The notes under the pieces: model-generated
What the model saw: the letters and a program-made list of their open reading frames with translations, nothing else
What the model was told of the DNA's origin: nothing
The model's database searches: none
Assembly: GCA_021787985.1 (NCBI GenBank)
Contig: JAJYLG010000023.1
Span: forward strand, 1-42,112
DNA from: Chloroflexota bacterium
GTDB lineage: Bacteria > Chloroflexota > Dehalococcoidia > DSGV01
Reading direction: 5' to 3'
DNA length: 42,112 nucleotides
Made by a program: the position numbers and the translations under genes
Part shown: positions 1 to 11,588 of the stretch, piece by piece
Layout: each line of letters opens with the position of its first letter
How positions within the stretch are numbered: the stretch's first letter is position 1

Positions 1-500
1 TTGGCCGCCCAGTCGCGGTGGCCACGCACGGGCACAGGCCGGCCGCGGGCCCGTCGCAGCGCCGCGCAGGCCGCCGCCGCGGCACGGAGCTGCGCCTCGG
101 GCGGCGGCTCGGCCGAGAAGTCGCCGGCCAGGCACAGGCCGATCAGCTCGCGGTTGTGGCGCGCCACGTGCGCGCGGACCGACTCGATCGCGCCGACCAG
201 GTAGACGCGACCGGACGGGAAGACGTAGCAGTGATAGCCGATACCCGGCCAGTCCCAGCGCCCGCCGCGGCCCAGGTCGGGCGGGGGCGTACCGGAGCCG
301 GCGTGACCGTAGTAGGCCGTGTGCAGCCGGTAGACCGTTGCCAGCCGCTCCTGCTCGGCCGCGGCATCCCCGTCCCGAGGGAAGGCCGCCGCGTCGTGGT
401 GGATGGCGATCCCGGTCACCTCGTCCAGCGTCCGAGTTGCGAAGCCCGGTCCACGGTCGGGGATCTGGTCACGCACGTCGATGAAGTCGCTCAGCTCCAT
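1..500 (-). CDS. N-acetylmuramoyl-L-alanine amidase (endolysin-type), 3' part outside window
   Basis: The frame is open from the ATG at 500-498 to the window edge, giving 166 codons without a stop. The protein looks like a zinc-dependent Amidase_2/PGRP-type peptidoglycan amidase, which cleaves the bond between muramic acid and L-alanine. Visible marks are IAIHHDA (residues 31-37, first zinc ligand His34), the fold-core stretch GIGYHCYVFPSGRVYLVG (87-103), CLAGDF (123-128) and GHRDW (160-164, second zinc histidine His161). The third ligand, usually a Cys or Asp some residues later, would lie outside the window. The start overlaps the upstream adaptor gene by 10 bp, so the two are probably translated together. 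Position after capsid and adaptor genes suggests a phage endolysin or a host amidase captured by that cassette. No signal peptide is visible. Confidence 0.82.
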   Translation of the reverse strand, partial: MELSDFIDVRDQIPDRGPGFATRTLDEVTGIAIHHDAAAFPRDGDAAAEQERLATVYRLHTAYYGHAGSGTPPPDLGRGGRWDWPGIGYHCYVFPSGRVYLVGAIESVRAHVARHNRELIGLCLAGDFSAEPPPEAQLRAAAAACAALRRARGRPVPVRGHRDWAA

Positions 501-1114
501 GGGGCCGTCACCTCCGCTTCGGCGAGCGCGGGTCGTTGCAGCCGCCGGACGCCAACCCGCCGTCGGCCGAGCGCGAGCACCAGCCGGCGGAAGGCGGCGA
601 GCCGCCGCTCGGCCTCGGCCGCGAACCGCTGCGGCGTGTCCGAGCCGCCCAGGTTGACGCGGTCGGTCGACGCCAGGGCGAGCTGCTGCGCCGCGTAGCC
701 GGCCGCCCCGAGCAGCACGACCTCTTGCTGCGCCGCGTCGAGCGTGGTGCCGGAGGCGTCGAGCTGGTGGAGCGCGTCCCAGTACACGGCGGCCGGGTCG
801 CCGGTCGGCGGCTCGTCCGTCAGCAGCAGGAGCTCGCCGGCGCGGCGCTGGAAGCGGACGAGCTCGGGTGGCTCCGCCGCGAGCGGGTATTCGACCGCCG
901 CGACGCGCAGCAGGTCGGCCAGCGATGCCAGCGCGAGCACGCGGTCGCCGGACGTCGTCGGCAGCTCGGTGCGTCGGCGCATGGGCAGCGCGAGGCTAAG
1001 CTCGCGCGCCGCCCGCAGCAGGTGCCGGTCGAGGTCCGCGTCCGCCCAGCGCAGCGCGCTCGAGTCGGACAGCTCGACCCGCAGCATCGCCCGCAGATCA
1101 ACGATCGTTGTCAT
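491..1114 (-). CDS. phage head-tail adaptor/connector-like protein
   Basis: This 207-residue soluble, helix-rich protein has the usual look of small phage neck or head-tail connector proteins (gp6-like): an N-terminal helix, then WADADLDRHLLRAARELSLALP, then a long helical tail ending in Arg-rich sequence. The match is by general pattern and by position between a capsid gene and an amidase gene; there is no diagnostic catalytic motif. The ATG at 1114-1112 follows a purine-rich AAAGGAC/GGTGGGAG leader. The stop overlaps the amidase start by 10 bp. A hairpin-bearing repeat lies just upstream (1141-1222). The function is inferred; a conserved hypothetical protein of another kind remains possible. 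Confidence 0.5.
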   Translation of the reverse strand: MTTIVDLRAMLRVELSDSSALRWADADLDRHLLRAARELSLALPMRRRTELPTTSGDRVLALASLADLLRVAAVEYPLAAEPPELVRFQRRAGELLLLTDEPPTGDPAAVYWDALHQLDASGTTLDAAQQEVVLLGAAGYAAQQLALASTDRVNLGGSDTPQRFAAEAERRLAAFRRLVLALGRRRVGVRRLQRPALAEAEVTAPWS

Positions 1115-1140
1115 CTCCCACCGTCCTTTCTGTCGTCACC

Positions 1141-1222
1141 CCGCATTCCCCCTCTCCCTCGTTGTGGGAGGGAGAGGGGGCGCGGGAGTGAGGACCTACC
1201 CCCGGGAGGGGGCCAGGGGTGA
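1141..1222. repeat. interspersed GC-rich repeat with 13-bp perfect hairpin
   Basis: The segment contains a perfect 13-bp inverted repeat (CCCCCTCTCCCTC at 1148-1160 and its complement at 1168-1180, loop GTTGTGG). A second CCCCC/GGGGG dyad follows around 1200-1212, then CAGGGGTGAGGG. Read on the minus strand in one frame it gives LTPGPLPGVGPHSRAPSPS, the kind of spurious peptide produced by a repeat class common in environmental bacterial genomes. It separates the capsid gene from the adaptor gene and could act as an attenuator in their transcript. Only this copy was seen in the window. Confidence 0.65.
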
Positions 1223-1225
1223 GGG

Positions 1226-2116
1226 CTACGGCCGCACGCCGTTGAGGCGGGCGCAGGACAGCTCGGAGAAGAGCGCCAGGCCGACGTACCACTTCACCCG
1301 CCAGCGGACCGCGTCCTTCGTCTCGAGCTCGCCGACGCGCTCGACCTGCAGCCCGCCCGGACCCTGCAGTCCGGCCAGCCGCCCCTCGCCGAGCTGCAGC
1401 GCATAGACGCTGGAGCAGTCGGTGCTGGTGCCGACCGTCTCGGCGTCGCCGACGAAGTCTGACACGGCCAGGGGGATGCCGTTCCAGTACTCGACATAGC
1501 GGCCGAGGTCGTCGCGGTGCGTCTCGAGGAAGGCGGAGCCGGCGCCGCGCACCAGGCCCATCAGCGAGCGGCGGGTGCGCTTCGACAGCAGCAGGAGGTC
1601 AGGCCGGCCGGGGCGGACGAGGTCCACCAGCTCGTCCAGCTTGGCCAGGGTGAGGCTGGCGCCGTTGACCCCCATCGAGGTCGTCCGGGCGCCGAGGAGC
1701 AGCGTGTTGAGGCCGTCGAACTGCTTCGGGTCCAACGACGAGTCGCCGGTGACGAACGCCTGCTCGAAGGCCTGGGCGACATCGCGCGCCTTGAGCTGGA
1801 TGACGGCCGCCTCCAGGTCCTGCACGTTGTTGCGCGTGCTCGCCAGGTAGCGGTCGACGTCGGCGTCGCCGCCGAGGATGGTGAGGCCGGTGCTGACCTG
1901 GGTGAAGGTGGGCGTCCCTTCGGTCCAGGCGTCACCGACCGCGTAGAAGGCGGCGCCACCCTGCGTGCTCTCGCGGTTGTACTTGAGCGAGTTGCCGACC
2001 AGCTCGATGAAGGGGAGCCGGTCGAGGATGGGCGACTCCTTGACGACGGTCTCGACGACGCCCTGCAGGACGACGTCGTTGGAGAGCTTGGCCGCCTCGG
2101 CCAGGGTGAGGGCCAT
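1226..2116 (-). CDS. HK97-fold-like phage major capsid protein
   Basis: The 296-residue product resembles short major capsid proteins: N-terminal helix (MALTLAEAAKLSNDVVLQGV), a glycine-rich loop (ESTQGGAAFYAVGDAW), a spine-helix-like stretch (DLEAAVIQLKARDVAQAFEQAF) followed by a short GDSS segment, a P-domain-like region (KLDELVDLVRPGRPDLLLLSKRTRRSL) and a closing beta-rich part ending in VKWYVGLALFSELSCARLNGV. The ATG at 2116 is preferred over the GTG three bases upstream because GGAGG sits 7 nt before it. No prohead protease, portal or terminase is visible upstream; the next upstream gene is a chromosomal GNAT protein, so this is the 5' end of the phage-like block. An encapsulin is a less likely alternative. 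Confidence 0.7.
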   Translation of the reverse strand: MALTLAEAAKLSNDVVLQGVVETVVKESPILDRLPFIELVGNSLKYNRESTQGGAAFYAVGDAWTEGTPTFTQVSTGLTILGGDADVDRYLASTRNNVQDLEAAVIQLKARDVAQAFEQAFVTGDSSLDPKQFDGLNTLLLGARTTSMGVNGASLTLAKLDELVDLVRPGRPDLLLLSKRTRRSLMGLVRGAGSAFLETHRDDLGRYVEYWNGIPLAVSDFVGDAETVGTSTDCSSVYALQLGEGRLAGLQGPGGLQVERVGELETKDAVRWRVKWYVGLALFSELSCARLNGVRP

Positions 2117-2151
2117 CACGTCACCTCCCGTGCGCGTATGGCCCGAGCATC

Positions 2152-2287: not shown

Positions 2288-2741
2288 TCAGAGATACCAG
2301 GTGTAGCCGCGGTGGGTGTGGCGAAAGCCGAGCCGCTCGTAGAAGCGGTGGGCGTCCGCGCGCCTGAGGTGGGAGGTGAGACCGACGCGGAAGCAGCCGG
2401 CCGCGCGCGCCCGCTCGACGGCGTCGCGCATCATCGCGTCGCCGACGCCGCGGCTGCGGTAGCGCTCGTCCACCACCACGTTCTCGACGATGGCCCGCGG
2501 TCGCGCGCCGTGGGCGATGCCCGGGAGGATGCAGATCTCGTACGTGCCGACGATCTGCCCGTCGGCCTCGGCCACCAGCAGGCGGTACCAAGGGCTGGCG
2601 GTGAGCTCGCGCAGCGCACGCTGGTGGTGCTCGCGAGGCTGCTCCGGCAGCTCGTTGGGTTGCTCCCCGCCTTGGCTGAGCTGGTGGTAGAGCTCGAGCA
2701 GGCTTGGCAGGTCGGCCGCGGCGACGTCGCGGATGCGCGGC

Positions 2742-2761
<20 letters not shown>
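2288..2761 (-). CDS. GNAT family N-acetyltransferase
   Basis: The 157-residue product is a single GNAT domain that would transfer acetyl from acetyl-CoA to an amine. Acetyl-CoA binding motif A is visible as [20 protein letters not shown] (RxxGxG/A type). Motif B follows as the closing [18 protein letters not shown], typical of stand-alone GNATs. The ATG at 2761 follows GAGGAGG closely. It overlaps the 3' end of gyrA by 20 bp, so it is the third gene of the minus-strand operon. The substrate cannot be deduced. Family assignment is secure. Confidence 0.88.
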
Positions 2762-5329
<2,568 letters not shown>

Positions 5330-5330
<1 letters not shown>

Positions 5331-9486: not shown

Positions 9487-10491
9487 ATGGCCGAACCCCC
9501 CGTGCTGCTCCGTTACCGCGCGCGGGTCGAGTCGGCGCTCGACGCGGCGGCTCCGCGCGAGCCTGCCGGCCTGGCGACCATGGTCCGCTACCACCTGGGT
9601 CTGGCCGACGTGGAGGGCCGGGTGGTGGGTGGCGACCCCGGCAAGCTGCTGCGTTCCTCGCTCTGCTGCGCGTTGGCTGAAGCCGCCGGCGCCGCGGTCG
9701 AGGATGCACTCCCCTTCGCTGTCGCCGTCGAGCTGGTTCACGCCTTCTCCCTGGTGCACGACGACATCCAGGACCACGACCGTCGCCGCCGTCACCGGCC
9801 GACGGTGTGGGCGGTGTGGGGCGTCGGCCAAGCGATCAACGCCGGCGACCTGCTGTGGGCGCTCGCCCAGCGCACGCTGCTGCGGTCGCCGCTGCCGGCC
9901 GAGGTTCGCGCCGCGGCCGCGTCCGAGCTTGCCGAGGCGTGCATGCGCATGATCGAGGGCCAGTACCTGGACCTCTACTTCGAGGCGCACGGTCATGTCA
10001 CCCCTACCGAGTACCTGGACATGATCGGACGCAAGACCGGCGCACTGCTGGGGGCGGCCGCGGCGCTCGGCCTGCTCGCCGCCCGCCGCGGGCCGGAGGA
10101 GGCCGACGCGGCGCGCGAGTTCGGGCGGCGCCTCGGTGTGGCGTTTCAGGTGCAGGACGACTATCTGGGCGTGTGGGGCGAGCCGGACGAGCTGGGCAAG
10201 CCGGTAGCGGCCGACATCGCCCGGCGGAAGAAGAGCTACCCGGTGGTGTTCGGCCTGGCCCACGCGCAGGGGTCTGACCGCGAGGCGCTCGAGCGCCACT
10301 ACGGCGGCAGCGGCGATGTCGCCGCCGCGCTGGCGGCGCTGGAATCGTGTGGCGCGCGCGCCGCCAGCCAGGCGCTGGTCGCACGGGCGACGGCGGAGGC
10401 GGAGACCGCGCTCGACGCCTTGCCGCTGCGGCCGGAGCACCGCGCGGCGGTGCGCGAGCTGGTCGCCTTCCTGGCGACCCGGACGCGGTAG
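9487..10491 (+). CDS. polyprenyl diphosphate synthase (probably farnesyl-type)
   Basis: The 334-residue product is a trans-isoprenyl diphosphate synthase, which condenses IPP onto allylic diphosphates. The first aspartate-rich motif is DDIQD (92-96) in HAFSLVHDDIQDHDRRRRHRP; the second is QVQDDYLGVWG (221-231), where the usual last Asp is Gly. The lysine region GRKTGALLG and the late ARRKKSYPV are also present. Phe and Ser at positions -5 and -4 before the first motif suggest a short product, and the operon needs farnesyl diphosphate for squalene, but chain length is inferred. The ATG has GGAAGGAG upstream. It heads the hopanoid operon. Confidence 0.9.
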   Translation: MAEPPVLLRYRARVESALDAAAPREPAGLATMVRYHLGLADVEGRVVGGDPGKLLRSSLCCALAEAAGAAVEDALPFAVAVELVHAFSLVHDDIQDHDRRRRHRPTVWAVWGVGQAINAGDLLWALAQRTLLRSPLPAEVRAAAASELAEACMRMIEGQYLDLYFEAHGHVTPTEYLDMIGRKTGALLGAAAALGLLAARRGPEEADAAREFGRRLGVAFQVQDDYLGVWGEPDELGKPVAADIARRKKSYPVVFGLAHAQGSDREALERHYGGSGDVAAALAALESCGARAASQALVARATAEAETALDALPLRPEHRAAVRELVAFLATRTR

Positions 10492-10502
10492 GAGGCGCGG
10501 GC

Positions 10503-11588
10503 GTGCGGCTGACCGATGAGGCGACCGGCGTCTCTCAGGGACGGACGGCCCTGCGCAAGGCCGAGCACCTCCAGATCAACCTCAGCGCGGACGTGCAGGC
10601 GAAAGGCGTCACGGCTGGGTTCGAGCGCTACCGGCTTGCGCACAACGCGCTGCCGCAGCTTGCGTTCGATGATGTGGACACCGGGGTAGAGGCGCTGGGG
10701 CAGCGGCTCGGCGCGCCGCTCCTCATCTCCTGCATGACGGGCGGCGCGGGCACGAGCGGACCGATCAATCGCACCCTGGCGCTCGTCGCGCAGGAGCACC
10801 GGCTGGCGATGGGACTCGGCTCCATGCGCGTGGTGCTGGATGACCCGACGACCATCGAGGACTTCCGCGTTCGCGGCGTCGCGCCGGACGTGCTGCTGCT
10901 GGCGAACGTCGGTGCGGTGCAGCTCAACTACGGCGTCACGGCCGAGGACTGTCGCCGCCTGGTGGAAGCGGTCGAGGCGAACGCGCTGGTGCTGCACTTG
11001 AACGCGTTGCAGGAGGCGCTTCAGCCGGAGGGGGACGCGGACTTCCGTGGGCTGGAGGAGCGCATCGGCGAGGTATGCGCCGCGTTGCCGGTGCCGGTGA
11101 TCGTCAAAGAGGTCGGCTGGGGGATCTCGGCCGACGTCGCCCGGCGGCTGTTCGCGGTCGGCGTCGCCGGCGTCGACGTGGCGGGTTCCGGCGGCACGAG
11201 CTGGAGCGAGGTTGAGCGGCATCGGCTGCGCGACGAGGTCGCACGCGAGGCCGCGGCCGCGTTCCGCGGCTGGGGCAACCCCACGGCGGAGTGCGTCCGC
11301 GAGGTCCGCGCCATCGCCGGCGACCGACTCGTCATCGGCTCGGGCGGCGTGCGCGACCCGCTGGACGTGGCGCTCGCCCTCGCCCTCGGCGCCGATCTCG
11401 TGGGCGCGGCGCGGCCGTTCCTGCTGGCGGCCTCCGAGTCGCTCGCCGCGCTCGATGTGCTGATTCGCACCTGGATCGCGGTGCTGCGCCTGGTGATGTT
11501 CTCCACGGGCAGCCGCACGCCGCGGGAACTGCGCCGGGCGGGTCTGCGGGACCTCGAGACCACGGCGGAGCTGCGACCCCGTGGCTGA
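10503..11588 (+). CDS. fni: type 2 isopentenyl-diphosphate delta-isomerase
   Basis: The 361-residue product is an FMN-dependent TIM-barrel isomerase interconverting IPP and DMAPP. Marks include RKAEHLQINL near the N-terminus, LISCMTGG (FMN site), LGSMRVVL, LHLNALQEALQPEGD, VIVKEVGWGIS, GVDVAGSGGTSW and the phosphate-binding SGGVRDPLDVALALALGADLVGAARPF. The start is the GTG at 10503, seven nt after AGGAGG; a longer upstream reading overlaps the previous gene and is not family-like. It follows the prenyl synthase by 11 bp and overlaps shc by 8 bp. Supplying DMAPP inside this operon links C5 supply to hopanoid output. Confidence 0.95.
   Translation: MRLTDEATGVSQGRTALRKAEHLQINLSADVQAKGVTAGFERYRLAHNALPQLAFDDVDTGVEALGQRLGAPLLISCMTGGAGTSGPINRTLALVAQEHRLAMGLGSMRVVLDDPTTIEDFRVRGVAPDVLLLANVGAVQLNYGVTAEDCRRLVEAVEANALVLHLNALQEALQPEGDADFRGLEERIGEVCAALPVPVIVKEVGWGISADVARRLFAVGVAGVDVAGSGGTSWSEVERHRLRDEVAREAAAAFRGWGNPTAECVREVRAIAGDRLVIGSGGVRDPLDVALALALGADLVGAARPFLLAASESLAALDVLIRTWIAVLRLVMFSTGSRTPRELRRAGLRDLETTAELRPRG

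Follow-up and report, generated by a model that had tools for sequence, protein, structure and literature searches.

What is a phage-type capsid gene doing next to gyrA in a bacterial chromosome, accompanied only by an adaptor gene and an amidase gene? We addressed this question for a window of 42,112 bases from a Chloroflexota bacterium (Dehalococcoidia, lineage DSGV01; assembly GCA_021787985.1). The window covers contig C26 (JAJYLG010000023.1) in full, with base 1 at the contig end; its genome, G000, comprises 3.50 Mb in 189 contigs and is 95.6% complete. We consider it quite probable that the window shows one piece (capsid, adaptor and amidase) of a domesticated, vertically inherited particle of tailed-phage origin, resembling a gene transfer agent (GTA), whose genes lie at several chromosomal places. 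Sequence comparison establishes that the window holds part of an old, vertically inherited and constrained gene set derived from a phage; we infer that the GTA-like particle packages and delivers host DNA. Three readings had been put forward in the original prediction: a defective prophage, a remnant of GTA type, and a capsid-based structure in host use. For this lineage the GTA-like and host-use readings are supported and the defective and remnant readings are not, given a portal, the packaging ATPase TerL, a tail hub fragment and a regulator-like gene elsewhere in G000, together with vertical inheritance and purifying selection.

Three phage genes at a contig end

The capsid protein matches the major head protein family PHROG_212 (E 5.2e-71) and the NCBIfam model NF045672 for the epsilon15 gp7 capsid (E 6.2e-61; 206.5 bits, above the curated cut-off of 75), and its homologues in relatives are full-length and 54-65% identical; a capsid profile gave no match to PDB sequences at 1e-3. 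For the adaptor, the match to PF24175 (SU10_adaptor) is borderline by itself (E 1.1e-5; 26.5 bits, just short of the cut-off of 27), and is joined by matches to PHROG_399 (E 0.0014) and, in a profile search of the PDB, to the gp12 adaptor of 7wmp at just E 0.035. The amidase matches PF01510 (E 4.4e-14). With these matches, and with the adaptor family present in 78 of 148 Dehalococcoidia genomes, the three genes are real, as had been proposed.

In profile searches, the capsid matched phage capsids and no encapsulin model. Encapsulins share with it an HK97-fold shell protein used by the host, but here a portal, a packaging ATPase, an adaptor and a hub accompany the capsid. We rejected an encapsulin because no encapsulin model is among the Pfam matches listed and because portal and TerL co-occur with the capsid.

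Since the window is the whole contig, the genes missing on its left reflect the edge of the assembly and not a biological boundary. The sharp boundary noted earlier corresponds to the 171 bp (2117-2287) between the capsid ATG and the adjacent acetyltransferase gene. The absence of portal and terminase genes from the window is likewise borne out: profiles for both match G000 on other contigs only.

The remaining genes of the set in G000

With profiles built from relatives, we located the portal on C80 (17835-19109; E 1.4e-199) and TerL on C158 (2258-3553; E 6.3e-158), the latter followed directly by a gene for a cysteine-rich helix-turn-helix (Cys/HTH) protein. The C-terminal third of a hub lies at the very end of C23 (E 4.9e-18, with a weak PHROG tail match to phrog_1887, E 0.0008) and adjoins a gene for a 69-aa OB-like protein. 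FAD oxidase and AMP-binding ligase genes precede the portal; epimerase, acyl-CoA dehydrogenase and HIT genes lie near TerL, and SnoaL and RuvB genes near the hub fragment. Because these neighbors are ordinary chromosomal genes and the parts lie on separate contigs, the set does not form a contiguous prophage module in G000. The orientation of the cut hub (C23) and the cut amidase (C26) would fit the two ends of one interrupted cluster. An amidase profile was circular, as it included the window's own protein, and its result was not used.

Gene order in relatives

The order of the set can be read in the relative G031: TerL, Cys/HTH, portal, a coiled-coil (scaffold-like) protein, capsid, adaptor, a 659-aa protein and a 71-aa protein, followed by the host genes MeaB and DUF166. 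A clustered set of this type spans about 7-8 kb. The G031 portal matches PHROG_64 (E 2.5e-28) and SPP1_portal (E 6.6e-17), and its TerL matches Terminase_6C (E 5.9e-5). In IMG/VR, 392 stretches encode a relative of the portal; among the best 80 of these (portal identity at least 57%), the gene order is mostly that of G031, with scaffold-like and capsid genes in 80/80, adaptor in 71, Cys/HTH in 54, hub in 45, OB-like in 24 and TerL in 23. The contigs of these best 80 (L170-L249) measure 4.6-27.2 kb and could be fragments of bacterial chromosomes that were classified as viral. Among the capsid relatives kept from IMG/VR, the large phage genomes show identities of just 33-40%.

The peptidoglycan enzyme near the hub or adaptor varies by lineage: it is Amidase_2 in the window and in G018, where the gene directly follows the hub and OB-like genes, and a transglycosylase in G003. 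Two extra genes (about 170-210 and 570-610 aa) stand between capsid and adaptor at L049 7897-10046 and L043 10858-13356, and a gap of about that size recurs at this position in many IMG/VR loci. The first extra gene of L049 matches PHROG_23653 (E 5.3e-43, unknown function) and the second matches nothing. In the capsids of L198, L202, L223, L224, L228, others and L166 (G126), the profile match falls into two parts ~150-210 bp apart, which suggests an inserted stretch; in G126 both parts lie within one 370-aa frame. The capsid of L084 (G043; 10304-11214) is in three pieces in a 10-contig assembly, possibly through sequencing error.

Dispersal over the chromosome

How widely can such a set be scattered? 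In the closed genome G059, the adaptor lies at ~1.202 Mb, the hub at ~1.213, the portal at ~1.288, the capsid at ~1.401 and TerL at ~1.404, which makes four places across 203 kb. G128 and G140, of the same genus, have the same neighboring proteins at each of the four places, except for an apparent small local inversion beside the portal. In the closed genomes G145 and G123, TerL is ~0.6 Mb away from the other four markers; we take these two to be Dehalogenimonas-like from their grouping, as we do the Dehalogenimonas-like and Dehalococcoides-like labels of the other members of family f14. Separate genes that keep their place and their constraint are hard to explain by repeated prophage insertion. 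A span of 203 kb would also lie far beyond heads of this type. Where the genes are scattered, a single head probably could not hold all of them, so the set would persist through the host, as GTAs do.

Inheritance and selection

To compare the set with its hosts, we chose 45 set-carrying genomes and used the 39 in which RpoB, TerL, portal and capsid each reach 70% coverage, leaving out G058, G076, G088, G106, G117 and G128. In maximum-likelihood trees (LG+F+G4), TerL, portal and capsid share 20/36, 21/36 and 19/36 splits with RpoB, against at most 2 after label shuffles, and families are monophyletic in 9/9, 9/9 and 8/9 cases, respectively. Conflicting split pairs with both supports at or above 95 number 4 for TerL, 0 for the portal and 3 for the capsid. 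The concatenated TerL, portal and capsid tree and the RpoB tree have 22/36 splits in common; 15 of these are supported at 95 in both, and no conflict arises at 95. Path-length correlation with RpoB is weaker (TerL 0.376, portal 0.64, capsid 0.334). In a FastTree analysis, 73 Chloroflexota-type capsids group together to the exclusion of 13 outside ones (support 0.923). Three genomes of another class branch early within this group; of the 15 out-of-class capsids, the tree includes these three and not the remaining twelve.

Could a host-specific phage or satellite lineage that integrates repeatedly account for this agreement? The family clades (8 or 9 of 9) could arise from host range alone, and the extra genes between capsid and adaptor in some lineages would suit such phages. 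We nevertheless regard this explanation as highly improbable. Seven of the splits common to the concatenated tree and RpoB unite different families, the same separate places and neighbors recur in G059, G128 and G140, and none of the contigs of the best 80 of 392 IMG/VR stretches exceeds 27.2 kb. HK97-type portals (PF04860), a rough control for ordinary prophages, are moreover sporadic, scattered over 11/148 genomes of the class.

Selection was assessed in 12 genome pairs, with not every gene available in each pair. The ratio of nonsynonymous to synonymous substitution rates (dN/dS) is 0.055-0.24 for the capsid, 0.065-0.27 for the portal, 0.10-0.57 for TerL, 0.04-0.72 for the adaptor and 0.13-0.70 for the hub, as compared with 0.02-0.19 for RpoB; the top value, 0.99, comes from one pair, for the OB-like protein over an overlap of 57 residues, and some dS values are near saturation. 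In 9/11 pairs, ties included, the portal has the highest or second-highest identity of the particle proteins. For the class genomes examined, the sequences establish vertical inheritance of the set and purifying selection on it.

The G+C content at third codon positions (GC3) of the particle genes tracks that of host rpoB (r 0.74-0.87), which it exceeds slightly on average (+0.02 to +0.07); a GC and amino-acid bias is reported for GTAs also (PMC7360931). Particle GC3 lies far above rpoB in lower-GC genomes (G082, G145, G081 and others), for example 0.81-0.90 versus 0.51 in G082. Cluster G+C relative to the flanks is mixed (+0.06-0.07 in G067 and G123, +0.03 in G071, about equal or slightly lower in three others) and therefore carries little weight.

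Tail hub, TerL and the possibility of another job

Sequence searches did not assign the 659-aa protein of G031 to a tail: neither Pfam nor PHROG gives a match at E 0.1 or better, no phage sequence matches it, and its best PDB profile match (E 0.039) is unrelated. Its family was identified as a tail hub by fold. We modeled the 667-aa hub of an IMG/VR contig from a 23-row alignment (mean predicted local distance difference test score, pLDDT, 72.7). The model matches the PVC hub (Foldseek E 4.4e-18) and phage Milano (VIA Z 24.7 over 307 residues), and shares its fold with the central hubs of contractile tails (Mu gp44, T4 gp27, VgrG, PVC/AFP spike; VIA Z about 19-25). Unlike these, it carries an inserted beta-propeller of ~300 residues, and no sheath or tube gene was recognized with it. 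The propeller (~31-335) follows the first hub strands and matches fucose lectins and sialidases (Z about 16), its last part being uncertain because residues 249-328 have pLDDT <50; the model suggests that it binds sugars.

The modeled 69-aa protein is of OB type (pLDDT 91.4). The Mu and P2 spike proteins score best against it (E 2.2e-3 and 3.8e-3), but numerous other OB folds score nearly as well, so position and fold do no more than suggest a spike role. A small OB-like protein after the hub parallels gp27 followed by gp5/gpV.

These features raise the question of whether the domesticated particle has some other job, such as lectin-targeted killing of relatives or export of something besides chromosomal DNA. 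Pyocin R2, diffocin, PVC and AFP have similar tail hubs, and a lectin-like propeller fits targeting. A DNA-free killer, however, needs neither TerL nor portal, and both are kept: the presumed Walker A, Walker B and nuclease aspartates of TerL (motif names that we take to apply) are present in 49/49 full-length sequences, with the histidine preceding the last two aspartates in 45/49, and the portal is among the best conserved particle proteins, as described above. No tube, sheath or toxin gene was recognized among the proteins examined. We therefore judge another job unlikely, and favor the GTA-like particle.

A conserved Cys-rich motif (GCD..SCL.CPLPRC.YDEPGG) and an HTH mark the protein usually encoded between TerL and portal (L151 3587-3916, alignment A6). 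The Cys/HTH protein of G000 matches PHROG_836, a late transcriptional activator family (E 1.1e-7), and other HTH families; the conserved protein is a candidate late regulator or small terminase.

Distribution and decay

We searched 148 genomes of the class with profiles for five markers. TerL is found in 89/148, portal in 82, adaptor in 78, hub in 76 and capsid in 69, mostly as single copies. The TerL count, and with it the co-occurrence counts that follow, includes five weak matches (G029, G057, G089, G098 and G104; E 1e-12 to 1e-36) that are probably other terminases. All five markers occur in 54/148 genomes, four in 18, three in 10, two in 7, one in 8 and none in 51; some absences may reflect incomplete genomes. 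In the wider phylum sample, the capsid is found in 34/301 genomes. Fifteen of these lie outside Dehalococcoidia, 13 with a portal match and 12 with a TerL match, the TerL match of G234 being fragmentary with stops.

Dehalogenimonas-like genomes G067, G082, G123, G134 and G145 have all five markers. In the closed Dehalococcoides-like genomes G013, G048 and G097, profile searches found neither capsid nor adaptor. G013 and G097 keep TerL, and in both the first 265-284 portal positions run into the last ~410 hub positions; in G013, where the remnant is at L156 7715-11818, one stop codon interrupts this stretch. G048 retains a truncated TerL only. Judged from these sequences, the set has decayed to a true remnant in the Dehalococcoides-like genomes.

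Is the window, then, also a defective prophage remnant, kept beside gyrA by chance? Just three phage genes are present locally, and remnants do exist, as the Dehalococcoides-like genomes illustrate. In the genomes examined, however, the gene set is intact, constrained and congruent with the host tree, and portal and TerL are intact in G000, so we assign this explanation a very small probability. For the class as a whole, a simple prophage remnant is ruled out by congruence, selection and conserved separate loci.

Comparison with gene transfer agents

A definition of GTAs given in passages of PMC9662315 has six features, including a caudoviricete-derived particle and the packaging of mostly random host DNA. 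Three features are present here in sequence: particle proteins of Caudoviricete type (capsid, portal, TerL and adaptor profiles, and the hub fold), an endogenized genome, often at multiple loci (four contigs in G000, 203 kb in G059, and G145 and G123), and vertical inheritance with co-diversification with hosts. For a fourth, an element that does not fit into its own head, the loci cover 203 kb in G059 but about 7-8 kb in clustered genomes such as G031. As for host-DNA packaging and delivery to other cells, the intact TerL residues are consistent with packaging. With three of six features present, we class the system as working like a GTA and not as a proven GTA.

RcGTA, BaGTA and BhGTA (viriforms) likewise have phage-derived head and tail genes that are endogenized, vertically inherited and placed at several loci. 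In contrast to them, the present set belongs to another phylum, has an epsilon15 gp7-like capsid, an SU10-like adaptor and a propeller-bearing hub, occupies single-gene or two-gene places in one genus, and is known from its genes. Capsid (NF045672) and adaptor (PF24175) resemble those of epsilon15/SU10-like podoviruses; the best phage capsid identity is 40.5%, to Streptomyces phage Rowa. Unlike the proteins of those phages, the G031 portal and TerL reach only ~23% and ~29% identity with the phage sequences that match them best over their full length, and the G031 hub, without a phage sequence match, resembles contractile-tail hubs in fold. No lysogeny or replication gene was recognized beside the set; integrases and replication genes were not searched genome-wide.

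How could such a particle work? The dispersed genes would be switched on together in some cells, and TerL would thread chromosomal DNA via the portal into epsilon15/SU10-like heads. The adaptor would connect the head with a short tail, consisting of the hub and an OB-like tip, and the amidase (a transglycosylase in another lineage) might aid release or entry. The hub propeller would then bind surface sugars of a recipient, and host DNA would be delivered.

Several observations weigh against a GTA-like particle. None of the five genes was found in 51/148 class genomes and just one to three in 25, and the PF04860 control is inexact because a general Pfam model is compared with profiles trained on class members. 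The single-gene TerL and capsid trees have four and three conflicting split pairs against RpoB; the capsid correlation of 0.334 is below the best of 999 permutations (0.37), so that its Mantel value is not significant; and the near-saturation of some dS values limits the selection estimates. Two divergent capsid copies occur in G112, and two TerL genes each in G067 (C1 189263, 351272), G134 (C19, C2) and G011 (C62, C52), so some exchange or duplication occurs. One TerL motif position is V in G000 alone and T in the other 48/49, and of the G000 hub only a C-terminal piece is available, cut off by the end of its contig. The four G000 contig stretches yielded no scaffold gene, and none of the proteins examined was recognized as a tail tube. 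The particle, and its packaging and delivery of host DNA, are predictions from the genes.

We give about even chances to a fuller history, in which a single domestication took place in the Chloroflexota stem before the classes split and the GTA has been inherited since, with a minimal tail (adaptor, lectin-bearing hub, OB tip), a division into separate loci in some families without loss of function, and loss in Dehalococcoides. If true, few GTAs would be as old or as widely inherited as this one, and as far as open-licence searches show, it would be the first in the phylum. Among the open-licence papers listed (preprints being outside the scope), no title or abstract opening describes a GTA for Chloroflexota, though a description may exist elsewhere. 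Passages of PMC12946183 lack the word Chloroflex, those of PMC12507015 have the term only in a reference, and neither set of passages describes a GTA of the phylum; a term search of the main text of the D. alkenigignens genome paper (PMC4918011) found no phage, capsid or terminase.

An ancient GTA across Chloroflexota would provide a route of gene exchange in largely uncultured bacteria and also in Dehalogenimonas, a dechlorinator of pollutants. Because the five markers occur in Dehalogenimonas-like genomes, at least one of them from a cultured strain, the idea is testable. Our results also suggest that particle genes can be scattered yet maintained, and that some short 'viral' contigs of IMG/VR are pieces of bacterial chromosomes.

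Organization of the window locus

The coordinates of the locus are collected in Table 1. The adaptor and amidase genes overlap by 10 bp, and the open reading frames (ORFs) of the acetyltransferase and gyrA overlap at 2742-2761, all genes being on one strand. We take gyrA to be such from its sequence, in agreement with the original prediction and without a profile search; its longest ORF extends to 5477.

Table 1. Features of the capsid locus and its chromosomal neighbors in the window
Feature	Positions	Strand	Remarks
N-acetylmuramoyl-L-alanine amidase (Amidase_2)	3..500	minus	at least 166 aa; open at contig end
Head-to-tail adaptor gene, SU10 adaptor-like	491..1114	minus	207 aa
13-bp perfect inverted repeat	1148..1180	not assigned	between capsid and adaptor genes
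Major capsid protein gene	1226..2116	minus	296 aa; HK97 fold, epsilon15 gp7 / PHROG_212 type; ATG at 2116
Alternative GTG start of capsid gene	2119	minus	
Ribosome-binding site GGGAGGTGA	2121..2129	minus	precedes capsid ATG; read from sequence
GNAT acetyltransferase	2288..2761	minus	PF00583 E 7.2e-19; chromosomal neighbor, outside the system
gyrA	2742..5330	minus	chromosomal neighbor, outside the system; start from codon-usage gene call

The inverted repeat forms a strong, G+C-rich hairpin; the RNA fold of 1110-1230 on the minus strand has -71.5 kcal/mol (z -4.4), and both hairpin motifs occur once each within the window. It is possibly a processing or attenuation hairpin, or a repeat element.

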